Source: Candidatus Woesebacteria bacterium (GTDB taxonomy: Bacteria; Patescibacteriota; Microgenomatia; UBA1400; UBA12108). Taken from it: a stretch of 40,092 nucleotides of DNA. The stretch lies in contig JAGOVG010000003.1 of assembly GCA_018060845.1 (NCBI GenBank), positions 85,759-125,850 on the forward strand, read 5' to 3'. Numbering within the stretch: position 1 is the first letter of the stretch; each line of letters opens with the position of its first letter. Position numbers and translations under genes: made by a program. The notes under the pieces were generated by a model that saw only the letters and a program-made list of their open reading frames with translations, had not been told where the DNA came from and ran no database searches. Of this stretch, positions 3,502 to 22,310 are shown one piece after another.

Positions 3502-3939
3502 ATGCCAGATAATATCGAAAGAAAAATAATCAAAAGACGACTTCAAACTCAGCTTAGCAGTCTATCCTATGCATATTTACATGGTGATCCTGATAAAGCG
3601 GAATATTTTAAACTCCAAATGATAGCAGGGATCCCTACAGCAGGTGATGATTACAGAAGGATACCACATGAAATAATGACAAAATTTGAAGAATACAAAA
3701 CCGAAGATCCTATTTATCATGTATTGATAGGGGGTATTGTAGACGCTCTGCGTCAAATTATTATCGATGGTGAAAACCCAGGAGTAATACAAACTAATTA
3801 CGTCCTAGCGCTCGCACAAGTCGCAAATCAAGAACGAGAGAAGTTTGGTGAAAAAAAGAGTTATCCAGGAGTTGTCTGGGGGGTTGGATTTGATACAGCG
3901 GTTAATAAATATAACGGAAATTCTGTTCCTAGTGATTAA
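3502..3939 (+). CDS. Hypothetical protein, accessory island
   Basis: 145 aa, starting MPDNIERKIIKRRLQTQL, with AAGGAAG 9-15 nt upstream of the ATG. It is predicted largely helical and soluble, with no signal peptide and no motif I recognise. It follows the previous unknown gene by 22 nt in the same direction, so they are probably co-transcribed. Base composition is AT-rich like its neighbours. The 112 bp after its stop contain only AT-rich sequence, presumably the promoter of the next gene. Confidence 0.6.
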   Translation: MPDNIERKIIKRRLQTQLSSLSYAYLHGDPDKAEYFKLQMIAGIPTAGDDYRRIPHEIMTKFEEYKTEDPIYHVLIGGIVDALRQIIIDGENPGVIQTNYVLALAQVANQEREKFGEKKSYPGVVWGVGFDTAVNKYNGNSVPSD

Positions 3940-4051
3940 TTCAGCTTTCGCACACTAACCAAAAACTTAAACATATTTATAGATCATAATTTTGTCTTAA
4001 ACATAGTCAATACTAATAATTAAGTTATAAAAATAGACTCAAACAAAAAAT

Positions 4052-4402
4052 ATGTATATTGAATATAAAAACCCTTATAAATCAAAACCACTACAAGTTT
4101 CAAAAAGAGAAGATACATCACTCGAAAATGTGACTGAGGAAGTTGATATTCCTGCTTTAGTATTTCACTTTCCAAGTAATCCTAGCGAAGTAGCTCACCT
4201 AATACAACAAGTAAACACAGCAATAGCAGCTAGAGAATCATGTCAACTAATCATCCCAGAAGCAAAAGTCCTCATTCCAGATGGATTAAAGATAGAAAGC
4301 GCAATAGCTTTTCACGAAGAAGCTATCGAACTATTGGTAATCATACCCGGCGAGCAATATTTGGCTCTATATATCAATAATCTCATCCAATTCCGACAGT
4401 AA
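4052..4402 (+). CDS. Hypothetical protein, accessory island
   Basis: 116 aa, starting MYIEYKNPYKSKPLQVSKRE. It is soluble, with a central helix (NPSEVAHLIQQVNTAIAARE) and a C-terminal beta-rich part. I recognise no family. No clear Shine-Dalgarno is present before the ATG; the AT-rich region upstream (TTATAAAA at about 4024) may hold a promoter for a near-leaderless mRNA. It is isolated between the unknown pair and the VapBC module. Confidence 0.5.
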   Translation: MYIEYKNPYKSKPLQVSKREDTSLENVTEEVDIPALVFHFPSNPSEVAHLIQQVNTAIAARESCQLIIPEAKVLIPDGLKIESAIAFHEEAIELLVIIPGEQYLALYINNLIQFRQ

Positions 4403-5622: not shown

Positions 5623-5881
5623 GATCCCAAAATTCAACTCAATTGCCGAAGAAGCCGAATTTTGGGACACTCACGATGTTACCGACTTTTTAGATGAACT
5701 AACTCCTGTCAAAATGAAGGTTACTCTGGGTCAACCTAAAGAAGAAACCTTAACTGTTAGACTGCAGAGCAATCTCAAAACCCAGTTAGGCAACATTGCC
5801 ACCGAGATGGGGGTAAACACCTCCACCCTCGCCCGCATGTGGATCGTCGAAAAAATGAAACAGCTCCAAGCTAAGTCTTAG
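5603..5881 (+). CDS. brnA: BrnA/CopG-type ribbon-helix-helix antitoxin
   Basis: 92 aa. The N-terminal segment I-P-K-F-N-S-I-A-E-E-A-E-F-W-D-T-H-D is the CopG-antitoxin/BrnA motif that binds the toxin. Residues 50-85 form a ribbon-helix-helix: beta strand E-T-L-T-V-R-L, then two helices ending T-S-T-L-A-R-M-W-I-V-E-K. It would neutralise BrnT and repress the operon at the 5326-5345 repeats. The stop codon overlaps the convergent trxB end by 4 nt, marking the edge of the accessory island. Confidence 0.82.
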   Translation: MTKSISKIPKFNSIAEEAEFWDTHDVTDFLDELTPVKMKVTLGQPKEETLTVRLQSNLKTQLGNIATEMGVNTSTLARMWIVEKMKQLQAKS

Positions 5882-6849
5882 TTGTCGTTATGACTCGCTA
5901 GCCACCGTTCAGCATCTAACGATGCCTGGATACCCATCCCAACCGCTGTCCCTGCTTGCCTGTAGCGGTGGTCTACACAGTCCCCTGCCGCAAAAACTCC
6001 AGGAATATTAGTCATCGTCGGCCACTCAGCGAGGCCCTCGCCATTTAAGCTCTTTGCAGCTTGGGTGAGGATATATCCCTCAGCATCTAGCTCTATGCTC
6101 GTACTCTTCAAAAAGCCAGTCGCGGGTATGTGCCCGATTGCAAAGAATAGTCCTTCTGCCTTTACATTTCTAGTTTCTAGTTTCGGATTTCTGATTTCTA
6201 GTTCTAGCTCCTCTACTCTCTCTCCCTTTATCCCCTTAAGGTTAGTGTTCCACATCACGGTAATCTGATCTTTAAAAGTATCTAGCCGCTTCTGCATGGC
6301 CACACTAGCCCTAAGTTTGTCTCCTCGGACCAGGAGAGTCACATTAGATGCAAATTTGGTTAGCGCTGTTGCGTCCTCTATTGCAGAGTCACCTCCCCCG
6401 ACCACATAGACATTTTTACCTTTGTAAAAAGCCGCGTCGCACACTGCGCAGGTCGAAAAACCCTTACCCCAATACTTATCTTCCCCCACGCCAAGCAGTC
6501 TGGGTGATGCCCCCATCGCCAGTATTACTGCGTCATATTCATATTCACCACTAGACATCTTAATTATTTGAGAATTTGAGCATTTAGGATTTGGGATTAC
6601 ACTACTCACCGTCTCGTACTCAACTCGTGCTCCAAACTTGGTTGCTTGCTGAGTCATCTCAACCATTAATTCTGGCCCAGTCTTGCCAACCACACCTGGG
6701 TAGTTCTCTATCTCAGTAGTTTTGGTCAGCTGTCCCCCTGGCTCTTCGCCAGCATAAACCGTAGTTTCGATCTCTGCTCGACTCGTATATATCGCAGCCG
6801 CCAGTCCCGCTGGTCCGCTCCCGACAATCGCTACTTTGTATTTGTTCAT
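5878..6849 (-). CDS. trxB: Thioredoxin reductase with two repeat-derived insertions
   Basis: 323 aa. FAD-binding GSGPAGLAAAIY at residues 10-21, redox centre C-A-V-C at 134-137, NADPH-binding G-G-G-D-S-A at 151-156, and the C-terminal FAD motif GVFAAGDCVD. It reduces TrxA with NADPH in the cytoplasm. Two short stretches look foreign to the family: NPKCSNSQI (about 87-95) and LEIRNPKLETRNVK (about 217-230). Both are encoded by low-complexity repeats (6565-6598 and 6168-6206) of a kind seen again in recF and the ligase. They fall at likely surface loops and keep the frame. Its gene is next to trxA, separated only by repeat copy 1. Confidence 0.95.
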   Translation of the reverse strand: MNKYKVAIVGSGPAGLAAAIYTSRAEIETTVYAGEEPGGQLTKTTEIENYPGVVGKTGPELMVEMTQQATKFGARVEYETVSSVIPNPKCSNSQIIKMSSGEYEYDAVILAMGASPRLLGVGEDKYWGKGFSTCAVCDAAFYKGKNVYVVGGGDSAIEDATALTKFASNVTLLVRGDKLRASVAMQKRLDTFKDQITVMWNTNLKGIKGERVEELELEIRNPKLETRNVKAEGLFFAIGHIPATGFLKSTSIELDAEGYILTQAAKSLNGEGLAEWPTMTNIPGVFAAGDCVDHRYRQAGTAVGMGIQASLDAERWLASHNDN

Positions 6850-6870: not shown

Positions 6871-7006
6871 GGTGAGTTGCAGAGTGCAGTCGTATCTCAC
6901 AACAAAAAAATATTCGCAGAGCGGGTAGCTCGAGACATAGATCAAAATTTCAACAGAAATTTATGATCGGTTTTTTGTGTGATGGTACGACGAGCTCGAA
7001 ACGAAC
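6871..7006. repeat. Structured dispersed repeat, copy 1 (136 bp)
   Basis: Nearly identical to 21751-21886 (three differences seen) and a diverged relative of 11444-11578. The predicted fold is an outer stem GAGT/GCTC (6882-6885 with 6994-6997), then GTCGTA/TACGAC (6889-6894 with 6986-6991), an A-run pairing with a T-run, and inside it two hairpins: GAGC/GCTC (6919-6922 with 6928-6931) and GATC..AATTTC/GAAATT..GATC (6940-6968). The second hairpin is followed by a T run on the plus strand and the first by a T run on the minus strand. The element begins 3 bp after the trxA stop codon (minus-strand sense). Confidence 0.85.
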
Positions 7007-7009
7007 CAT

Positions 7010-7342
7010 CTAACTAATAACTTGCTTAATCAAGTTCTCATACATAGGGCGCCCAGCAAACCCTACTTTTCTGGCCACTTCTTTGCCATCTTTAAACATA
7101 ATGACAGTTGGGATACTCATCACACCGTACTGCTGTGCAGTAGCCTGGTTGGCGTCAACGTCCAACTTGCCGATCGCCACCTTGCCCGCATAGTCATCTG
7201 CCAGCTCATCCACGACTGGTCCAGCCATGACACATGGACCACACCAGGTGGCCCAAAAATCTACCATTACTGGCTTGTCCGATTTGAGCACTGAGTCTCC
7301 AAAATTTTGGTCTGTAAATGTTGCTGTATTGGCTCCTGCCAT
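7010..7342 (-). CDS. trxA: Thioredoxin
   Basis: 110 aa, full length. Active site W-C-G-P-C at 33-37 in FWATWCGPCVM, cis-Pro in M-S-I-P-T-V-I-M-F. A strong AGGAGGA Shine-Dalgarno site precedes the ATG. It carries electrons from TrxB to cytoplasmic targets and, by family analogy, to the membrane protein CcdA encoded upstream in the same direction. Repeat copy 1 begins right after its stop. Confidence 0.96.
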   Translation of the reverse strand: MAGANTATFTDQNFGDSVLKSDKPVMVDFWATWCGPCVMAGPVVDELADDYAGKVAIGKLDVDANQATAQQYGVMSIPTVIMFKDGKEVARKVGFAGRPMYENLIKQVIS

Positions 7343-8123: not shown

Positions 8124-8627
8124 CTACATTCTATACGGCTGCAAAACTAGTCGGATCAAACCATAGCCAACTATATATCCACCTACTCTCTGCTCCTTTT
8201 TTAATTTTACTAGTATCGCAAACAATACGAGGTCTAATATGGCCTCCATCCCCCACCAGGGTATTCCCAAGACTAAGTTGTCAAACTCCCCGTTTACTCC
8301 ATTTGCAACTCTACCTATCGCTTGAGCGAGTGGCAGCGGTGTGATCACTGCCCACAACATATTTTTCACCCGAAAAACCAGATATCCACCACAGAGCAGT
8401 AATGCTCCCCAGATCGAAAGTCCTCCCTCCCATACTCTTGGTATTGACGTAATATCAGCTTGATAATAATCCCAATACTCAAATACGTGATATGCTCTTG
8501 CCCCTATTAAAGACAAGCATAATATCCATGGGATCAATCGCTTTAACCTAGGTTCTAGGTACTCGGCCATGCTCCACCAGACAGCCGACGCGATCCCAAC
8601 AATCAATCCGTATGCGGAAAATATCAT
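8124..8627 (-). CDS. lgt: Prolipoprotein diacylglyceryl transferase-like protein, shortened
   Basis: 167 aa against about 260-290 in typical Lgt. Retained family marks are W-E-G-G-L-S-I-W-G (67-74), the signature A-I-G-R-V-A-N-G-V-N-G-E (103-114) with the catalytic-region Arg, Asn and Glu, P-W-W-G-M-E-A, and a final G-Y-G-L-I-R. Several membrane helices remain. Lgt attaches diacylglycerol to lipobox cysteines of prolipoproteins. Missing length is at the N terminus and in the periplasmic head, so activity is uncertain. It is next to ccdA on the same strand. Confidence 0.75.
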   Translation of the reverse strand: MIFSAYGLIVGIASAVWWSMAEYLEPRLKRLIPWILCLSLIGARAYHVFEYWDYYQADITSIPRVWEGGLSIWGALLLCGGYLVFRVKNMLWAVITPLPLAQAIGRVANGVNGEFDNLVLGIPWWGMEAILDLVLFAILVKLKKEQRVGGYIVGYGLIRLVLQPYRM

Positions 8628-9266: not shown

Positions 9267-9596
9267 TTACCCTTTAACCTTACTCTGTCTTAGCTCTCGT
9301 AGCTTCCACATAAAGATTCGTCCTTTGCTCCTAGCATTTGGCGCATCCATCGCAAATGTGCGCGCCGCATCCAGGAGCCCTCTAGGCGTGCTTTTGGCTA
9401 GTCGCATATACAGAGATTTATGTGCCAAGTCATCTAGATCAATCGCCAGACGGTACGCATAATCCTGAAATTCTTGGGAGATATATTTACCGTCCTCTTT
9501 GGGTTTATATTTGGAGAGGATATCCCCCACCAGTGTTGGCCCGCCTGCAGCGCTATGCGCAGCATTGCGGGCAGGTTGGATCTTACTATTGTCCAT
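9267..9596 (-). CDS. Small hypothetical protein coupled to the DNA ligase gene
   Basis: 109 aa, helical, basic at the C terminus (RSKGRIFMWKLRELRQSKVKG). Its start lies inside the last codons of the ligase gene (11-nt overlap), so its translation is coupled to the ligase. The N-terminal segment PARNAAHSAAGGP is encoded by a long GC-rich inverted repeat (9539-9572), which may be an inserted repeat. The region K-Y-I-S-Q-E-F-Q-D-Y-A-Y-R-L-A looks like the real conserved core. No known family recognised; the coupling suggests a role with the ligase. Confidence 0.65.
   Translation of the reverse strand: MDNSKIQPARNAAHSAAGGPTLVGDILSKYKPKEDGKYISQEFQDYAYRLAIDLDDLAHKSLYMRLAKSTPRGLLDAARTFAMDAPNARSKGRIFMWKLRELRQSKVKG
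9539..9572. repeat. GC-rich inverted repeat inside a coding region
   Basis: GCCCGC (9539-9544) pairs with GCGGGC (9567-9572). Inside, GCGC-tat-GCGC flanked by GCA/AGC adds a second stem. It encodes part of the N terminus of the 109-aa protein and is much more GC-rich than its surroundings. Confidence 0.55.
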
Positions 9597-11403
9597 ACAT
9601 GGCCTCTATCTCGTCAAGCGTTGTGATTTCTTTTACGCTTTTGTCGTCTCGGAACTTAACAAGTCGGGGGAAGCGTAGGGCATATTTGGCGCTGTGACTA
9701 GGCGAGACTGTAATCTCATCAGCCGCGATCTCAACTACTACCTCGGGCTTGACCCATACATCCGGGATCAAGCTGTCGCTAACTTCGTAGTTTTCTAGTT
9801 TCGAATTTCTGACTTCTAACTTCTGTAGTTTTGCATACAGTTCCCTAAACTGCTCATCCGTTAGTCCAGTCCCGATCTTAGCAATAGTCAGTATGGCTTC
9901 ATCTTTGCCTTTTATCCCAACCAAAAATGCCCCCATCCCAAAGTTACTCCTCTTCCCTCTTCCTCGGTAATAACCCATTACCACACAATCGATCGTGTCT
10001 GATAGCTTGCCCTCTGCACTCTCAATTTCTTTTAGCTTGACCCAGTTAAAACCACTTCTACCTGGGTCATATGTCCCATCTACCTTTTTGACTAATACCC
10101 CTTCGAGTCCCTCAGATAACTGGTTGGCGTGGTACTCTCTGATCTCCAGTGCCTGATCTGTCTCAATCTGGGGGTTAAGAGCCAGGATTACATCAGGCTT
10201 GAGCACGCTCTCTAGTATTTGCCTCCGCTCGCGAAGCGGTTTGTTTATCAAAGTAACACCGTTTAGATACATGATGTCAAAGACAAAAAAACGGAGCGGA
10301 ATATTCTTTTGTTGCTCACTTATCCCATGCTTACGCTTGCGCGTGATGGTCATCTGAAAAGGCAAGAGCTCTCCGCTATCCGGGTCGTATCCGACTGCCT
10401 CTGCATCTAATATCACGCTCTCCGCAGCTAGCTCGCGCTCTATTAACATGAGCTCAGGGAACTGCTCTGTATTCTCGTCTAAGTTTCTTGTATACGTCTT
10501 TACCCAAATTTTATCCTGAGCTACGTCGAAGGACTCTGCTTCAAACATAGATGCCTGGCTTAACTGACCTGTCTTGGCAGCCATGGTTGTTGCATTGCTG
10601 AGTTGTTGCATTCTTGAATAGTGTATCTGCACCCTCGTCCCGTCCAGTTTTGGCTCCACATACACTCTACCCATCTTCTCTATCATTTCGTCAACTGACG
10701 ATAGTCGCTGAGCTAGTGCTGGGATAATAGGCACACCCAAGAATACACTCGCTTTGCTTAGTGCCTCATCGACTCCCTCCCCTACCACTTCCTCGCCTAG
10801 CAGTGCCACATCTGGCCTCATTTGGTAGGCTTTTTCTAGACGCTCACTATAATCTTTATTTCCACAGGCAAAATATGACAAAACGTCGAGCATCGTACTC
10901 TCACTAAATCCTAGACGCAGGCTCTCATTAACCATCCGCACAATATATTTAGCTTCGACAGCACTAGACTGGGACAGCAGGTGGACTAGCTTAGTTTGTT
11001 TGCGCTCCTGGCTCCCTGACCCACTCTCGTGTGCGATCGCAAGGAGCTGCTCATACACTTCTGTAGTACTCAATGCTTCTGTGCTACTAACTCTCCCCGT
11101 TGTCGCGTTACCTAGCTCCCTAACTAGCTCTCCCAAGTCCCCCATTTCTTTAAACTTGGCTGTTACATCATCTGTACTCATTCTGACACTCTGTGCGATA
11201 GCCCTGATCAACATCTTCTCAGCTAGGTTAGATTGTATACGCAAGTATGGTGCAGCTAGTTGGCCTAGCGCCAAATTAATTACCACCCTCACCTCTCCCA
11301 CTTCTATTTTCTTTAAAAGCTCAGCTAAGATCACTGTCTTCTCTAGACGTTTAGTCGTGGCCTCAATCCGTTCAAAATATCCACATAGTTCAGTAAATAT
11401 CAT
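9586..11403 (-). CDS. lig: ATP-dependent DNA ligase (archaeal type) with repeat-derived insertions
   Basis: 605 aa. An N-terminal helical DNA-binding domain (about 1-200) is followed by the nucleotidyltransferase domain with motif I VEPKLDGTRVQIH (AMP-accepting K252), motif III region FFVFDIMYLNG, motif IV EGVLVKK and motif V NWVKLK. A C-terminal OB fold ends RFPRLVKFRDDKS. It seals nicks with ATP; bacteria normally use the NAD+ enzyme LigA, so this gene is notable. Two stretches look inserted: about 265-298 (containing QQLSNATT and SFDVAQDK) and KLEVRNSKLENYE near 530. Both are encoded by repeats like those in trxB and recF. Repeat copy 2 lies 41 bp upstream of the start. Confidence 0.93.
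   Translation of the reverse strand: MIFTELCGYFERIEATTKRLEKTVILAELLKKIEVGEVRVVINLALGQLAAPYLRIQSNLAEKMLIRAIAQSVRMSTDDVTAKFKEMGDLGELVRELGNATTGRVSSTEALSTTEVYEQLLAIAHESGSGSQERKQTKLVHLLSQSSAVEAKYIVRMVNESLRLGFSESTMLDVLSYFACGNKDYSERLEKAYQMRPDVALLGEEVVGEGVDEALSKASVFLGVPIIPALAQRLSSVDEMIEKMGRVYVEPKLDGTRVQIHYSRMQQLSNATTMAAKTGQLSQASMFEAESFDVAQDKIWVKTYTRNLDENTEQFPELMLIERELAAESVILDAEAVGYDPDSGELLPFQMTITRKRKHGISEQQKNIPLRFFVFDIMYLNGVTLINKPLRERRQILESVLKPDVILALNPQIETDQALEIREYHANQLSEGLEGVLVKKVDGTYDPGRSGFNWVKLKEIESAEGKLSDTIDCVVMGYYRGRGKRSNFGMGAFLVGIKGKDEAILTIAKIGTGLTDEQFRELYAKLQKLEVRNSKLENYEVSDSLIPDVWVKPEVVVEIAADEITVSPSHSAKYALRFPRLVKFRDDKSVKEITTLDEIEAMYGQ
10514..10533. repeat. Short palindrome-type repeat encoding FDVAQD in the ligase
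   Basis: TCCT-GAGCTACGTCGA-AGGA: complementary ends around a core. A related unit, with ends ACACT/AGTGT and core GAGTATAGTCGA, lies at 34535-34556. The core is shared while both ends changed together, which suggests a hairpin-type repeat family. Confidence 0.6.
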
Positions 11404-11443
11404 AACTAGAGTTTAACTTATCTTTTAGCGTAGTGTAAGTCTA

Positions 11444-11578
11444 GCGAGCTACAGAATGCAGGTGCATCTCACAACAAAAAAATATTCGCAGCCCGTGTAG
11501 GGCGAGACATAAGTCAAAATTTCAGCAGAAATTTATGACTGGTTTTTTGTGTGACGGTGCGCCGAATTCGAAGCGAGC
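11444..11578. repeat. Structured dispersed repeat, copy 2 (diverged, compensatory changes)
   Basis: Same layout as 6871-7006 but with many substitutions. Stem changes are matched on both sides: GAAT/ATTC (11454-11457 with 11566-11569), GGTGCA/TGCGCC (11461-11466 with 11558-11563), GCCC/GGGC (11491-11494 with 11500-11503), and AGTC/GACT (11512-11515 with 11537-11540). The A-rich and T-rich arms and the AATTTCAGCAGAAATT hairpin are unchanged. It lies between the divergent ligase and fic genes. Confidence 0.8.
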
Positions 11579-11621: not shown

Positions 11622-12707
11622 ATGCCCTACACTCCTAAATACGCTATCACCAACAAACTCCTAACTCTAGTTGGTAGCGTCGATGCCGCCCGCGAAGTAA
11701 TAACTACCGCCCCCCTCGTCCCCGCCTGGGAGCGCAAATTCCAAAACGAAGCACGTATCCGTACTATCCACCACGGTACTCACCTAGAAGGCAACAATCT
11801 CAACCTCGACGAAGTCGAGAAAATCGTCGACGAGCCAGATAGAGGCGAATCTCTAGCCCGCGAGCGTGATATCCGCGAAGTTATCAACTACCGCGAAGTT
11901 ATGGACTATATCGACTTTCTCAAAAATGAACTAGAGCAATCACCTAGTCCTAGTCTAACCGAGGGTATGCTCAAAGAAATTCACAAAAAAACAGTTAGTG
12001 GGATATTAAATGAAACTGAGGCAGGTAGCTACCGCACACTCAGAGTCGTAATCAGAAATACTACAACTGGCGAGGTCACCTTCCGTCCCCCTGCACCTCC
12101 TCAGGTCCCGACCATGATCACCGACTTCTTTGCTTGGCTTAGTAGTGACGAAGCAGAGCTTACCCACCCGCTAATCAAGGCCGGCTTAATCCACGCCGAA
12201 CTAGTCCGCATCCATCCTTTTACCGATGGTAATGGCCGAGCCACCCGCGCCCTCTCCCTCCTCCTCCTACTCTTAGAGGGTTATGAAATCAAAAAATTCT
12301 TTAGTCTCGACGAATACTACGACCAGGATCCCCAGGCTTACTATGACGCATTAAAATCTGTCGAGATCACTGGCGACCTAACTGCTTGGCTCGAGTACTT
12401 TGTGCTTGGGATAAGCATCGAATTTAACCGGGTCAAATCGTTGGTCCAAAAGCTCTCCCTCGATCTCCATCTCAAAGAAACTATTGGTGGCAAACAAATA
12501 GCCCTCTCAGACCGCCAGATCAGGTTAGTTGAATACCTGGAGAAGTATGTGAGCCTAGGCATGGCCGAAGCCAGGGATCTCCTCCCCGACGTCTCCGACG
12601 ATACCATCTTGCGTGACTTAAGAGATCTCGTCGACAAAAAGCTTATTAGTAGGCGTGGCAACACCAAAGGTGCCAAATATTACTTAAGTAACAGCAAAAA
12701 CTCATGA
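11622..12707 (+). CDS. Fic-domain AMP-transferase with C-terminal winged helix
   Basis: 361 aa. The Fic motif H-P-F-T-D-G-N-G-R-A-T-R at about residue 198 is complete, with the catalytic His. An inhibitory-type segment G-T-H-L-E-G-N lies near residue 55, typical of class II Fic proteins with an N-terminal autoinhibitory helix. The last ~75 residues form a helix-turn-helix (ARDLLPDVSDDTILRDLRDLV, then a K-L-I-S-R-R-G wing). Such proteins AMPylate target proteins and often control their own gene. The 11594-11614 palindrome is a candidate site. The ATGA overlap couples it to the next gene. Confidence 0.9.
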   Translation: MPYTPKYAITNKLLTLVGSVDAAREVITTAPLVPAWERKFQNEARIRTIHHGTHLEGNNLNLDEVEKIVDEPDRGESLARERDIREVINYREVMDYIDFLKNELEQSPSPSLTEGMLKEIHKKTVSGILNETEAGSYRTLRVVIRNTTTGEVTFRPPAPPQVPTMITDFFAWLSSDEAELTHPLIKAGLIHAELVRIHPFTDGNGRATRALSLLLLLLEGYEIKKFFSLDEYYDQDPQAYYDALKSVEITGDLTAWLEYFVLGISIEFNRVKSLVQKLSLDLHLKETIGGKQIALSDRQIRLVEYLEKYVSLGMAEARDLLPDVSDDTILRDLRDLVDKKLISRRGNTKGAKYYLSNSKNS

Positions 12708-12904
12708 ACTATACAACAGACCCCACCTTCCTCATGATGATCTTTATCCTCCCTTCCCTTTTTGGGCTGTCACTACTAGGCGAGGGAGTGAGCAAAATCA
12801 TGAACTACGATTCACGTGGCTGGGTCGGTGTCACTGCTGGGGGCTGCTTTATCGTAATAATTCTCCTGGCTTACTTTATGTTAAGCGCGAGCGTAATTAA
12901 CTAA
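12704..12904 (+). CDS. Small membrane protein coupled to fic
   Basis: 66 aa with two hydrophobic helices (about 8-28 and 42-62) joined by a short polar loop MNYDSRGW. Its ATG overlaps the fic stop as ATGA, so translation is coupled. No family recognised. It may be an accessory or membrane partner of the Fic protein, by context only. Confidence 0.55.
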   Translation: MNYTTDPTFLMMIFILPSLFGLSLLGEGVSKIMNYDSRGWVGVTAGGCFIVIILLAYFMLSASVIN

Positions 12905-12907
12905 AAA

Positions 12908-13258
12908 ATGCAACAAAGCAACAATCTATCAATTAGAACCACAAGCTTTGCGATAGACATAATTGCTTTCACAAAATCAATAACACCCACCGTTTACAAC
13001 AAACCACTAATCACTCAACTTGTGCGGTCTAGTACGTCAATCGGAGCCAACTATCACGAATCGACAGAGGCGCAAACTAGAAATGACTTTATCCATAAAA
13101 TTAGTATCTGCAAAAAAGAAGCTCGTGAGACGCTCTACTGGTTAGATGTAATTCAAAAAACTAATCCAGGTTTAAAGACAGAAGTACTAGTTGATGAAGT
13201 TAGCCAGTTAATTAGAATATTTGCGGCCTCAATGCGAACTGCAAAACAAAATGCTTAA
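12908..13258 (+). CDS. Four-helix-bundle protein (S23/23S rRNA intervening-sequence-protein family)
   Basis: 116 aa, the usual length. The pattern L-V-R-S-S-T-S-I-G-A-N-Y-H-E-S near the centre and K-I-S-I-C-K-K-E-A-R-E-T-L-Y-W-L after it are the signature of the four-helix-bundle family related to proteins encoded in 23S rRNA intervening sequences. The function of the family is not established. It begins 3 nt after the small membrane protein gene, so it is part of the fic unit. The 45 bp after it hold TTGCATTGTTG-type repeats and no terminator. Confidence 0.85.
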   Translation: MQQSNNLSIRTTSFAIDIIAFTKSITPTVYNKPLITQLVRSSTSIGANYHESTEAQTRNDFIHKISICKKEARETLYWLDVIQKTNPGLKTEVLVDEVSQLIRIFAASMRTAKQNA

Positions 13259-13303
13259 CCCTTTTATTGCTGCATTGTTGCATTGTTGAACTGTTACATT
13301 TAT

Positions 13304-15397
13304 TTAGTTCCCTATCGTCCCTGGCACCACTTCTTCCCACTTGAGCGCAAATACTTTCATCGAGTCTGGCATATTGTTAAGTAGGTCGACGCGGTAAGTG
13401 AATTTTTCGGCAGCAGTACTCACGTTGTCGGATACTAGGTCTCTCCCCAGGTTTACTCCTCCCCAGGCGACCACACTCCCCTCAAAGTTAGCTGGAGCGT
13501 CACTAGTCCCATTACTCTCTGTTGTCATGGCTGAGTCGACTACGTAGAGTCCCTGGATGTCTTCTACAGCTGGTGACACGTTTACACTGCCATTAACTAG
13601 TATGGCTAGGAATCCACCGTCAGCAACAGTCACGTCTCCGGCTATTCGTAGGTCACCGTTAACAAAGATGACATAACTCTCACCAGCTAACACATCTAGT
13701 CCAGTTATCATGCCAGCATTGCCCCCTGTTGGAGCCAGGTAGTACCAGTCTACTGTCGTGGTTGGCTTAGTTATTGTGTTGCTACCCCAGTAATTCTGGG
13801 TATTTGGCGTTACCCCCATGTGTGCGGCAAAGTAGTCATAATTCATTGTTTTGCCACGGTACCTGGTCTGTGCACTATATCCCTCTGTCGAGACTGAGCC
13901 TATTCCTACGTCTACTGACCCACTTGACCTCGTTAGAGCGCCGATCGAGCCTCCTAGTCCCGAGTCGATTAGGTAAGTAGAAGCAGAAGGTAGCTCGCTC
14001 CTCACGTTGCCTGACGCATAGATATTGCCACCGACGGCCTGCCACCACGCTTCTCTATTTAAAGTGATAAAGAAATTGGTCGAACCAGTAGTCGTTACAT
14101 TAGTCTTAGTAGGGCATTGGTTACACCCTGATGCAGTCGAGCAGGCATAGCCTGTAGGAAATCCTGTTAGGGTAGCGGTTGGTATGGTGGTCTGGGCGCC
14201 TACATTAATACTGTAAGAGCCATTAGCTGTGCTCACTGTCCCAGTCTGCCCTGTGGATAACGCTACACTCATCCCTCCCCCAGTCCATGGGGTACTGATC
14301 GAGCAGACATTATTAGGATCTAGATACACAGTGCCAGCTATCAGATTGGCGGCGGCTGTCGTATGTGTCGCTACAACTTCACCAGAACAACTATCGCTCT
14401 GATAACGAACCACCCTAACATAATAAGTAGTATTTGGTGACATCCCACTTATAGCATAGCTATTTGTAGCGCTACCGAGTTGTGCATCGACAATACAATC
14501 CTCAGCATTCACACATCCTGCTGTGACCTTGGCTTGATCTGTCCCCACACTTATATATTGTGTTCCACCACTCCCCGCGCTCCACATGGCAGTAGCGCTA
14601 GCATATGTAGATCCAGCAATTATTGAGAGGTTACTAGGTGCAGTAACCGAACAATTAGACACACAACTCCAGGTAGTCGTTACGGTACGACAAGTTATCA
14701 AGTCGTTTTTAATCCAATTCCCCCCGTTCCTATTGCATTGTGCACCACAACCATTCTCATCCTGACAATCACAGTAACAGTTGCTAGCTCCTCCACGAAT
14801 GGTTCTCGAAATAAACATATCGTCCCAATCACTGCATGCAAACTGAGTAGGCGTATTACATCCTATATCTCTAGTATATGTAGAACCCTGTGTCTGTGTC
14901 GGTGTATACGTACTACCTGGTGCACAACAACCACAGTTATCTTGACATCTACCTTTTATCTCAGATCCATCACATCCAGTCACTATGTGTCGTGAGGGAA
15001 AGTATGTATCACATGTCCCTCTTTGGACACATTGTCCTAAATTAGAGTCATTGGTAACGGATCCTCCACTCTGGGTGTATAAGGTAGGACTACCACATGA
15101 TAGTGTAGTTCCACCTCCACATGATTGGCCTTGAAAACCTCCACCGCCCCCGCATTCACCAGCCCCGACGCATTGACCTTGACAACATGTTTGACCGCCA
15201 CCACAGTTACTGTCAAACACGCAAGATGCGTCAGGAGGTAATCCTGGATCACAAAACGATGTACAGCATGGATCTGGAGGACATCCACATGGGTCTGAAC
15301 AACCAGGAGGGGCAGCTTCGACGCTATCTATCCCTGTATAAATAAAAGTGAAATTAAAAATTACGAACAGAGATATAGCTAGCTTGATAAAGTACAT
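13304..15397 (-). CDS. Large secreted Cys-rich surface protein with FN3-like domain
   Basis: 697 aa from ATG 15397; a TTG 21 nt upstream is possible but has no better Shine-Dalgarno. Signal peptide MYFIKLAISLFVIFNFTFIY ending near VEAAPPG. A Cys-rich region of about 240 residues follows (many CxC and CC pairs, e.g. CGCPPDPCC), so disulfides are likely. Next come an FN3-like domain (TAPSNLSIIAG ... MSPNTTYYVRVVRY), a carboxypeptidase-regulatory-like domain (GTVYLDPNN ... TANGSYSINV), and a C-terminal ~230-residue beta-rich region with G-N-V-R-S-E-L and ESYVIFVNGDLRIAG. No C-terminal anchor is seen. Probably an adhesin or surface-layer component; the DsbA-like protein could oxidise it. Confidence 0.75.
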   Translation of the reverse strand: MYFIKLAISLFVIFNFTFIYTGIDSVEAAPPGCSDPCGCPPDPCCTSFCDPGLPPDASCVFDSNCGGGQTCCQGQCVGAGECGGGGGFQGQSCGGGTTLSCGSPTLYTQSGGSVTNDSNLGQCVQRGTCDTYFPSRHIVTGCDGSEIKGRCQDNCGCCAPGSTYTPTQTQGSTYTRDIGCNTPTQFACSDWDDMFISRTIRGGASNCYCDCQDENGCGAQCNRNGGNWIKNDLITCRTVTTTWSCVSNCSVTAPSNLSIIAGSTYASATAMWSAGSGGTQYISVGTDQAKVTAGCVNAEDCIVDAQLGSATNSYAISGMSPNTTYYVRVVRYQSDSCSGEVVATHTTAAANLIAGTVYLDPNNVCSISTPWTGGGMSVALSTGQTGTVSTANGSYSINVGAQTTIPTATLTGFPTGYACSTASGCNQCPTKTNVTTTGSTNFFITLNREAWWQAVGGNIYASGNVRSELPSASTYLIDSGLGGSIGALTRSSGSVDVGIGSVSTEGYSAQTRYRGKTMNYDYFAAHMGVTPNTQNYWGSNTITKPTTTVDWYYLAPTGGNAGMITGLDVLAGESYVIFVNGDLRIAGDVTVADGGFLAILVNGSVNVSPAVEDIQGLYVVDSAMTTESNGTSDAPANFEGSVVAWGGVNLGRDLVSDNVSTAAEKFTYRVDLLNNMPDSMKVFALKWEEVVPGTIGN

Positions 15398-19653: not shown

Positions 19654-20768
19654 ATTATTTCTCTAAACTTTTTCTCAAATACACTACGGTTAAATTGCTG
19701 TGCCCATTTGATTATTCGATCATGATCCCACACAGTTTGCTCCATTTGCTTAATCCCGTTAATCACACACTCTACGCTTGTGTCATCTATTAGTATTCCT
19801 GTGCCTTTTTGTTGAATTGTTGAATTGTTGAATTTTTTAATTTCTGGTAGTACTGTCTCCCTATATCCTCCACTATTTAAGGCCAGTACTGGCGTACCAT
19901 GTGCCATCGCTTCAACGACCGTCATCCCAAAGTCTTCGTCACGAGCGAGTGCTACAAATCCTTTAGCTTGACTATATAATTTCGCCAGTTCTTTATCTTC
20001 TACTCTACCCAAATACTCTACATATTTTGAGCTTTGTGCTTTAACATTTGTACTTACCCGCTCCCCGACTAGTTTTAGTCTAAACCGACCGCGCTCCGCA
20101 GCGAGAGTAGCCTCACTCACTCCTTTTGCTCCCGTAATCCGTGTTACCAATAAATAATAATCTCCCCTTTTTAATTGCACCTTTCCACTTTCCCCTTTTA
20201 ACTCTATAGGTGGATATATCACAGTTGCTTCTTTACCATAAAACTTGCGTATCCGAGATGCCACTTCGTGACTGTTAGCTATCCAGGTGTTTACTCGCTG
20301 TGCACTCATATAGTCGAAGTAGCGCAAGGGTGGCCCAAACACGTAGATAAACAGTCTGCCCCACCACTTACTCATTGCCCCAGTTGGGGTGTCATAACCA
20401 TAAAGCCATTTTGGCGGTGTATGGCAATAAGCAACCACTCTAGTCTTGTCCCCCACTCTAAATCCACGAGCAATATATCCACCAGAAGTCGAGGTAATAA
20501 CCAGGTCATATTCAGTTAGATCGATACTCCTCCAGATCCAAGGGAGCAAAAATCGTAAGTAGCTAAAGAGCCGTCCAATTTTTAGTAACCATCCATACGA
20601 GCTCTCGTGGATCTCGCGGTCACTAAACATAGCCTTGGCAGTCCCATTTTTTACAAATGCAGTATAAATAGGTGCCTCTGGATACATCTCTGAAAGCACT
20701 CTGAGTACTCGCTCCGCACCCCCTGCCTCGTTTAAATAATCGTGAACTAATGCTATCTTTTTTATCAT
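19650..20768 (-). CDS. GT4-family glycosyltransferase
   Basis: 372 aa from ATG 20768; an ATG 24 nt upstream lies in a TTGCATTG repeat and would add an atypical MQQGNIET. MIKKIALVHDYLNEAGGAER is the family N terminus. The C-terminal domain has D-E-D-F-G-M-T-V-V-E-A-M-A-H-G, the GT4 E-x7-E motif. It transfers a sugar from an activated donor to a lipid or glycan on the inner face of the membrane. Two stretches look inserted: NVKAQSSKY (about 235-243) and KKFNNSTIQQKG (about 316-327, from a TTGAATTG repeat at 19808-19845). Confidence 0.88.
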   Translation of the reverse strand: MIKKIALVHDYLNEAGGAERVLRVLSEMYPEAPIYTAFVKNGTAKAMFSDREIHESSYGWLLKIGRLFSYLRFLLPWIWRSIDLTEYDLVITSTSGGYIARGFRVGDKTRVVAYCHTPPKWLYGYDTPTGAMSKWWGRLFIYVFGPPLRYFDYMSAQRVNTWIANSHEVASRIRKFYGKEATVIYPPIELKGESGKVQLKRGDYYLLVTRITGAKGVSEATLAAERGRFRLKLVGERVSTNVKAQSSKYVEYLGRVEDKELAKLYSQAKGFVALARDEDFGMTVVEAMAHGTPVLALNSGGYRETVLPEIKKFNNSTIQQKGTGILIDDTSVECVINGIKQMEQTVWDHDRIIKWAQQFNRSVFEKKFREII

Positions 20769-20812
20769 TGTTTCAATGTTGCCTTGTTGCATTGTTGCAT
20801 TAAATTAACAAT

Positions 20813-21727
20813 TTAGAATAAACCCATTTGGTTATCAGGTACTTTTGATTTTACTGTTTTTTCTTCGTCTCCCCAGATCCTCCTCACCAGACTTTTAAAC
20901 CCTAGGTCTTCTAGAGTATTTTTTAATAACTCTTTCTTAATATCCACATACTCCATCTCACTAAGTTCTATCGGAAGGGACATGTCAGTCACGATCCTAG
21001 AGAGATCTTGTGACAAAAAGGCACTGTCACGGCCAGTTAGCAGCTTCTCGTAGACTTTTGAATTTAGCTTGTCATTTTTTGCATTAACTGCCGCATAAAT
21101 GTCCACTAAGCTCCCATACTCTTGCAAGAGCTTGGCGGCAGTCGTCGGTCCGACGCCTGCCACTCCAGGGATATTGTCTGACACATCACCTATCAACGCC
21201 TTGTAATCTACGATCTGGCTCGGAGTGACTCCGTACTTTTCAACTACTTCTGCAACTCCATATATCTTGGCTGGCAACTTGCCTTTAGGAGGAGTTAATA
21301 TAGTTACTTTGGGACCTACTAGCTGCATAGTGTCCTGGTCGCCAGTTAATATGACTACATCCCCATCGATCTCAATACACGACAGTGTTCCGATAATGTC
21401 GTCTGCCTCGTATCCCTCGACTTCGCTCTGGAGTATCCCCATAGCCTCGATCACCTGCTTGACTATCGGGATCTGCTCGACCATCTCGGTATCGGCTTTT
21501 GGTCGCTGAGCTTTATATCCTACATATTTCTCATGTCTAAATGTCGGCTTAGGTAGATCCCAGGCTACCATGACATGACTAGGTGCTACTTCAACGAGTG
21601 CCGAGTAGAGCATGGATGCTACACCATACACGGCTCCTACCACTTGACCAGTTTTTGAGGTCAGTGGCGGGTATGCATGATACGCACGGTGTAGTAGCGC
21701 GCTCCCATCGACTAATAACAATTTCAT
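20813..21727 (-). CDS. Stand-alone 5'-3' exonuclease (PolA N-terminal domain) with putative clamp-binding tail
   Basis: 304 aa, equal to the 5' nuclease domain of DNA polymerase I with no polymerase part. Seen: L-L-V-D-G-S-A-L-L-H-R-A-Y at the start, E-G-Y-E-A-D-D-I-I-G, L-T-G-D-Q-D, G-D-V-S-D-N-I-P-G-V and the helix-hairpin-helix G-V-G-P-T-T-A-A-K-L-L. All metal-binding acidic residues look present. It removes RNA primers and flaps. The extreme C terminus is N-Q-M-G-L-F, close to the Q-x-x-L-F sliding-clamp motif, so it may be recruited by DnaN. Repeat copy 3 is just upstream. Confidence 0.93.
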   Translation of the reverse strand: MKLLLVDGSALLHRAYHAYPPLTSKTGQVVGAVYGVASMLYSALVEVAPSHVMVAWDLPKPTFRHEKYVGYKAQRPKADTEMVEQIPIVKQVIEAMGILQSEVEGYEADDIIGTLSCIEIDGDVVILTGDQDTMQLVGPKVTILTPPKGKLPAKIYGVAEVVEKYGVTPSQIVDYKALIGDVSDNIPGVAGVGPTTAAKLLQEYGSLVDIYAAVNAKNDKLNSKVYEKLLTGRDSAFLSQDLSRIVTDMSLPIELSEMEYVDIKKELLKNTLEDLGFKSLVRRIWGDEEKTVKSKVPDNQMGLF

Positions 21728-21750: not shown

Positions 21751-21886
21751 GGTGAGATGCAGAGTGCAGTCGTATCTCACAACAAAAAAATATTCGCAGA
21801 GCGGGTAGCTCGAGACATAGATCAAAATTTCAGCAGAAATTTATGATCGGTTTTTTGTGTGATGGTACGACGAACTCGAAACGAAC
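21751..21886. repeat. Structured dispersed repeat, copy 3 (136 bp)
   Basis: Differs from copy 1 at only three positions seen. Outer stem GAGT/ACTC (21762-21765 with 21874-21877) is fully paired here, where copy 1 has one G-T wobble; GTCGTA/TACGAC at 21769-21774 with 21866-21871. It begins 4 bp after the stop codon of the K+ channel gene (minus-strand sense), almost the same placement as copy 1 after trxA. Confidence 0.85.
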
Positions 21887-21890
21887 AAGT

Positions 21891-22310
21891 CTACTTTCTT
21901 ACTAGGTAATCCAAATGCTTCTTTAGCTCATCCAACTTCATATGTAGTTCATCCTGTCGCTCCAATATCCGCCTCATATTAAAATCTTCTTGGTATCTAA
22001 GCATCTCAACCGACACAAAAGCAACCAAAGATCCAAATAATAGTACTCCGCCTACTTCTAGTATCACTGCCATCAGTCGCCCTAGCAGGGTCACAGGATA
22101 CACATCCCCGTAGCCAACACCAGTAACAGTCGTAATAGCAAACCAGAGCCCATCCTCATAATCCAAAATCCGAGCAGCTGCTGCACCCGATTCGACTGGC
22201 ACGATCACGAGTCCCAAAACAAACATCAGAACAATAAGTAATAGTAACAGTTTACGAAATCTCTTACTCCGCGCTAGTTTGCCGGCCACGTCTCTAACAT
22301 GCTGTGTCAT
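21891..22310 (-). CDS. Two-helix potassium channel
   Basis: 139 aa. Membrane helix at about 20-38, pore helix and selectivity filter T-V-T-G-V-G-Y-G-D (the canonical T-x-G-Y-G), second helix at about 85-105, then a ~35-residue charged coiled coil (FNMRRILERQDELHMKLDEL). It would form a tetrameric K+ channel in the plasma membrane. There is no RCK domain. Its start follows the ftsH stop by 3 nt, so it is co-transcribed with ftsH. Confidence 0.9.
   Translation of the reverse strand: MTQHVRDVAGKLARSKRFRKLLLLLIVLMFVLGLVIVPVESGAAAARILDYEDGLWFAITTVTGVGYGDVYPVTLLGRLMAVILEVGGVLLFGSLVAFVSVEMLRYQEDFNMRRILERQDELHMKLDELKKHLDYLVRK

Follow-up and report, generated by a model that had tools for sequence, protein, structure and literature searches.

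A short, structured, non-coding repeat found three times in a 40,092-nt stretch of a Candidatus Woesebacteria contig (hereafter the window) is a real and widespread element, apparently uncatalogued in Rfam and in the literature searched. Its copies have a common fold, are dispersed through CPR genomes, are present at a given site in some species and absent in others, can lie in either orientation at the same site and can be closed by an inverted copy of coding DNA. We think it probable that this is a mobile, non-autonomous, non-coding element of CPR bacteria, with a conserved head, a stem derived from the host, copying by fold-back, a factor acting in trans and a unit that flips in place. The genomes of CPR bacteria are very small, and the literature searched contained no account of a small dispersed repeat from this group.

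The longest repeat family of the window is 136 nt in length, and its three copies (Table 1) have 100, 82 and 98% identity to copy 1. All three + strands adopt one common fold (-43.6 to -51.8 kcal/mol), for which the z-scores are -5.5, -4.9 and -4.1 and none of 200 shuffles is equally stable; the reverse strands fold more weakly. The paired stem of copy 1 runs a few bases past the limits of the repeat. An earlier note on this DNA had described three copies with one fold, on which the repeat search and the folding of all three + strands agree, with the start of copy 2 corrected from 11444 to 11443. The paired changes that it listed between copies 1 and 2 are present, namely GAGT/GCTC to GAAT/ATTC, GAGC/GCTC to GCCC/GGGC, GATC/GATC to AGTC/GACT and, with one T.G among its pairs, GTCGTA/TACGAC to GGTGCA/TGCGCC. 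Copies 1 and 3 do differ at only three positions, and a recent origin of one of them is plausible from the letters. However, the core of copy 3 is 100% identical (110/110) to a sister-species copy, so that recent duplication has an alternative in gene conversion or strong constraint. The window also has scattered short runs of an 8-nt TTGTTGCA-like motif in both orientations, at 10584-10629, 12897-12938, 13256-13309, 19798-19843 and 20757-20810.

Table 1. Copies of the element in the window and the parts of copy 1 (CM, covariance model; the gene names around copy 1 are our own reading of the sequence)
Feature	Position	Strand	Evidence and details	Neighbouring genes
Copy 1	6871..7006	+	repeat; fold; CM match at 6900-6980, 70-76 bits	stop codon of 110-aa thioredoxin-like gene (7010-7342, -); start codon of TrxB-like gene (5878-6849, -)
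Copy 1, inner stem P1, 5' strand	6889..6910	+	fold; pairs with 6971-6991; paired changes in copy 2	
Copy 1, hairpin P2	6913..6936	+	fold; GCA/GA internal loop, GAGC/GCTC stem	
Copy 1, hairpin P3	6940..6968	+	fold; C-ANCA-G loop, bulged A	
Copy 1, inner stem P1, 3' strand	6971..6991	+	fold	
Copy 2	11443..11578	+	repeat; CM match, 75-80 bits; most diverged of the window copies	divergently transcribed genes 9586-11403 (-) and 11622-12707 (+)
Copy 3	21751..21886	+	repeat; CM match, 72-77 bits	ion-channel-like gene (21891-22310, -); PolA exonuclease-like gene (20813-21727, -)

With 111 distinct copies aligned, the covariation is overwhelming. All 28 base pairs vary on both sides, 95.6% of the cells are paired, and the covariation score is 0.747, as against 0.178 after shuffling and no more than 0.116 with slid partners; the alignment was made by fitting to the model and is biased in its favour (in the alignment of the first model, length differences were padded with N). 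The head is a three-way junction, in which P2 is interrupted by a GSA/GA internal loop, while P3 is capped by a C-ANCA-G loop and has one bulged A; covariation is seen in all P2 pairs and in all 11 P3 pairs. The unpaired parts are kept: in the internal loop of P2, the 3' side reads GA in 108/111 copies and the 5' side GCA or GGA in 87/111, and the P3 loop is AGCA, AACA, ACCA or ATCA in 105/111. Two copies (L090 and L091) keep the ANCA loop on a P3 stem of wholly different sequence, CTGAGTC/GACTCAG. G.U makes up ~2% of the pairs, a low share that is unusual for RNA. On the + strand, G.U outnumbers A.C by 59 to 16, an excess which indicates that one single strand is the folded form. We infer that the head is recognised as a folded single strand, either ssDNA or RNA.

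Further copies, which the earlier note had proposed as a check, were found in the window's own genome. The covariance model matches six places in it, three of them inside the window; with a weaker copy on contig C6 (L092:2132) and, on C7 (L005:1470-1560), a copy with an internal deletion, there are at least five copies or remnants beyond those of the window. The deleted copy has lost P3 and part of P2 and still closes as a perfect GCAGGAGTAT/ATACTCCTGC hairpin; its intact version stands at the orthologous site in G002 (L010). An exact search for the P3 motif in ~85,000 bacterial and archaeal genomes returned 46 stretches, of which 42 are in CPR lineages (Nomura-, Zambryski-, Yanofsky-, Taylor- and Giovannonibacteria, Microgenomates and others). 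The other four (L024, L036, L052 and L058) were rejected as chance small hairpins, matched weakly by the R2 model and in three cases over P3 alone. The covariance model located the element in 29 of 380 sampled Patescibacteria genomes, in a patchy distribution, with up to 11 copies found among the 12 candidates scored per genome. In g169, a genus of Nomurabacteria, it is present in 24/24 genomes, with 2-33 copies each. The family is almost confined to Patescibacteria (CPR). The earlier note's picture of a structured non-coding repeat with real covariation is right, and its copies are dispersed in CPR genomes. Among 2.9 million viral contigs there were zero matches to three core patterns, and a phage origin was rejected on this ground.

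A known RNA family was rejected on the Rfam searches. In the window, Rfam 15 gave no match to the element at gathering score and returned two tRNAs only; at four other loci, searched up to an E-value of 5, none was credible, the best being a microRNA model at 37 bits with a cut-off of 90. A 23S rRNA gene in Parcubacteria (L028:4894-8000) has a group I intron-like match of 43.5 bits, below the cut-off of 50.

Comparison with relatives reveals empty sites, as the earlier note had suggested looking for. The site of copy 1 is empty in three of them (G002, G004 and G001), the junction between the thioredoxin-like and TrxB-like genes of G002 reading TTATTTAATAGAGATATAGAATATAGTTATG without an insert. 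The site of copy 3 is empty in G002, G001 and G005, and the gap that corresponds to copy 2 in G002 holds 492 bp of unrelated content without the element. In G003, the site upstream of polA is occupied by a different subfamily in the same orientation as copy 3 (L123, about 190-300), a copy identified by eye and not among the covariance-model matches. Five intergenic sites were compared in up to 24 genomes of g169, and at every one of them some species carry an insert and others have none, while some species hold the unit in the opposite orientation or another hairpin family instead. A second such family, observed at the same g169 sites (L175, L185, L186, L174 and L214), has the form GGATTGTTAAAATTATTT-ATCTCGTAGGGC...GGGTAAAGAGG-AAATAATTTTAATAATCC with locus-specific arms; a third, ATAGAGGTCCAACATCAAGCTGGCYCCAGAGRTTRTACCTCTAT, occupies both sites of one locus of G312 in opposite orientation (L094, about 3900-3970 and 8500-8570; L095, about 4130-4200).

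The limits of the unit are best resolved in g169, where matches between paralogues set them at 99 nt, AAAATAG...CTATTTT (AAAATAGTCT...AGAGCTATTTT). This unit has 92-96% identity between g169 loci with unrelated flanks, and its AAAATAG/CTATTTT ends are terminal inverted repeats in the sense used for MITEs; copies in f56 end in GCGAG...CGAGC. The ~136 bp given in the earlier note therefore stands as the length of the repeat but not of what moves, the mobile unit being ~99 nt in this genus and roughly 108 nt in that of the window. At site E2, the insert of G387 is identical to the reverse complement of that of G386 at 121/127 positions, and in direct comparison at 62/127, which shows that the two are inversions of each other. 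All six differences in these 127 nt form three compensated pairs, which suggests that change on both sides at once is common here. Close REPIN-like inverted pairs of copies, spaced by about 45-80 nt, are frequent; they were seen in G387 C1, at 560582/560707 and 692610/692754, and in G386, G404, G406 and G168. Almost every copy is intergenic or lies at the end of a gene, and many f56 copies end 2-6 nt from a stop codon.

The source of the outer stem can be read from individual loci. In G387, the flanks outside the unit also lie outside the model, so that pairing there is free of its influence; taken locus by locus they have a mean longest complementary run of 7.9, as against 4.30 +/- 0.27 when re-paired (highest value in 500 permutations, 5.4). 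Nine relatives (L208-L212 and L215-L218) have plain intrinsic terminators at site B, such as AAAAAACCCAAATAA-TTG-TTATTTGGGTTTTTT in G398, and the filled site of G404 reads AAAAAAATCCCAATAAG-unit-CTTATTTGGGATTTTTTT, with G312 alike. From this comparison, the unit stands where the loop of the terminator would be, with the stem of the terminator as its outer arm. The left arm at site E2 consists of coding sequence and encodes the K-L-V/I of a C-terminus that is found in empty relatives too: the gene ends in ...DGTKLVY* (G388) and ...DGNKLIY* (G404) where the site is empty, and in ...DGVKLVVIK* (G400), ...DGYKLIEIK* (G394) and ...DGVKLIEAK* (G387) where it is filled, the stop codon in these last three coming from the AAA TAG of the unit. 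In each of the three, the right arm matches the reverse complement of the same species' left arm exactly (AAACTAGTC/GACTAGTTT in G400, AAATTAATC/GATTAATTT in G394 and AAAACTAATA/TATTAGTTTT in G387). The same inverted gene-end pattern is seen at site E1 in G394 (TTTAAAAAATC/GATTTTTTAAA) and, with the gene on the other side, in a copy of G242 (TTTCGAAATGTGG/CCACATTTCGAAA). A short GNA/GNA mismatch loop lies between unit and arm. The arms of the window copies are not terminator-like and none of them was seen to copy coding DNA, both of which count against the explanation proposed below. In the genus g185, where intergenic DNA is too diverged, the comparison of arms with empty sites is uninformative; arms extended outwards by a lenient aligner ran too far where the DNA is AT-rich, and the gene-overlap list from this step was left out.

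These arms also bear on the earlier note's reading of the paired changes as selection on structure. For the head this reading holds, its loops being kept in >100 copies from many families. As the sole source of the outer stem it does not: the second arm there repeats the local host DNA in inverted form, so that pairing need not reflect slow compensatory selection.

In the mechanism that we propose, the unit would fold as one strand, with a short self-complementary end (AAAATAG...CTATTTT in g169) closing the three-way head, and would land beside the 3' ends of genes or at the place of a terminator loop. The part of the stem that lies outside the unit is host DNA, either the arms of the terminator or the native flank with an inverted copy of that flank. 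The self-complementary end may fold back and serve as primer for copying the flank, either when the unit inserts or afterwards through template switching, and such fold-back copying would give the long, perfect, locus-specific stem. A putative factor acting in trans would recognise the head, and recombination between the arms could then flip the unit in place. We offer more tentatively, as possible rather than probable, the specific proposal that insertion builds its own stem, with the end snapping back, polymerase copying host DNA in reverse and the unit able to flip. If true, every copy would gain a perfect locus-specific inverted repeat, inverted coding sequence included. A GNA/GNA mismatch at the boundary of the unit is not expected from plain fold-back copying and counts against it.

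Further results count against the mobile reading itself. No mobilising gene was found: no open reading frame recurs beside the copies beyond housekeeping genes such as MreB/DnaK-like ones and no mobilisation gene is shared, and a linked autonomous gene was rejected on this ground. No target-site duplication is visible at copy 1 or at E2, where the species compared are ~70-85% alike and the junctions approximate. Copies in G387 have no orientation bias with respect to replication, as judged by the GC-skew halves (6/5 and 5/5). Insertion into lagging-strand ssDNA was rejected for this reason; the absent bias argues against such a mechanism unless inversions erase it.

The chief alternative to a mobile element is that the cell itself uses the head, as a host-serving structured RNA or terminator module, for example a 3' UTR terminator, a protector of mRNA ends or a protein-binding RNA. 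We regard this as unlikely, although several results favour it. The head is conserved across many CPR families; every relative examined has a terminator at site B, whether or not the head is there; and the unit supplies a stop codon in G400, G394 and G387. The element is also enriched between convergent genes: 10 of the 26 copies in G387 lie in convergent and 1 in divergent gaps, where intergenic length predicts 19% and 20%. At the orthologous dnaX-ybeY site, copies of two species have a near-identical core and diverged flanks, which host constraint or gene conversion fits better than a decaying parasite. However, most sites are empty in some close relatives, there is no fixed neighbour gene, and other hairpin families replace the unit at the same site. 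Between tandem genes there is no orientation preference with respect to transcription (42 vs 34), one site has the flipped orientation, and the share of G.U pairs is low for RNA. A riboswitch or other cis-acting mRNA element was rejected on the lack of orientation bias and of a fixed downstream gene. The stem followed by a T-tract, as in intrinsic terminators, is seen at site B and in some Paceibacteria; among 113 copies, an A-tract on the 5' side is paired with a T-tract on the 3' side in 20 and the reverse in 4, so that the idea of every copy lying inside a terminator was rejected, paired tracts being present in only about a fifth. The earlier note had left the choice between a mobile element and an RNA or terminator element; the results fit a non-autonomous mobile element, with a tie to terminators in some clades.

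A second alternative, which we consider improbable as a full account, is that the paired changes are mutational and not selected, with one arm copied onto the other. Published work describes how RNA hairpins can arise and be maintained through template switching during DNA replication (PMC8794818). Besides having this published mechanism, such an account would fit the three compensated pairs of G387 and G386, the rarity of G.U intermediates and the outer arms that repeat coding DNA perfectly in inverted form. While the stems are explained in this way, the unpaired features kept across families are not: the GSA/GA and C-ANCA-G loops, the bulged A and the lengths of the junction would be erased by unguided correction. 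Near-identical units in unrelated flanks are left unexplained as well. Template switching is likely a contributor, not the whole.

That the copies are REP/REPIN-type elements moved by a host REP-associated tyrosine (Y1) transposase is very improbable: they are dispersed intergenic palindromes, with REPIN-like inverted pairs about 45-70 nt apart in G387 and RAYT-sized Y1 proteins in several carriers, but Y1_Tnp (PF01797) is missing in about half of the carriers tested, among them the window's own genome with its >=7 copies and ten others (G131, G137, G159, G164, G186, G228, G280, G328, G363 and G096), and is present in many non-carriers, so that transposase presence does not track carriage. An IS110/IS1111-linked structured element was rejected, as no IS110 transposase (PF01548, DEDD) occurs in 46 genomes, with the positive controls detected.

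Among known systems, REP/REPIN sequences with their RAYT (TnpA-REP) come closest in being short, non-coding, intergenic, imperfect palindromes with many copies and inverted pairs, and REP elements are recognised as a folded strand (PMC3116915, PMC2817692, PMC8266576). The CPR element differs from them in its branched three-way head, its far larger unit of 99-108 nt and its stem extension of host DNA, and it has neither a GTAG/CGTC tag at the hairpin foot nor a Y1 transposase that tracks it. With MITEs and ERIC/RU-type sequences (PMC2759123), small mobile sequences that include the 127-bp RU-1, it shares a non-autonomous nature, a length class of 100-150 bp, an intergenic location, inverted ends and presence or absence between relatives. 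Unlike these, it has an internal structure kept by covariation across many families and an outer stem that is, at resolved sites, an inverted copy of host DNA, with no target-site duplication seen. Group IIC introns insert beside terminator stem-loops. The CPR element resembles them as a structured element whose targets include intrinsic terminator hairpins, but its unit is ~100 nt, no reverse transcriptase was seen nearby, the group II intron model is absent from the Rfam matches in the window and the four other loci, and the unit takes the position of the terminator loop, not one downstream of the stem. Template-switch hairpins (PMC8794818) likewise repeat the neighbouring sequence perfectly in inverted form and change on both arms at once; these are local mutations, whereas here a conserved unit from elsewhere stands at the apex and spreads. 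The outer arms, some of them inverted coding ends, are natural before-and-after pairs for perfect hairpins made by selection, by insertion or by template switching, and they bear on the use of covariation as proof of functional RNA.
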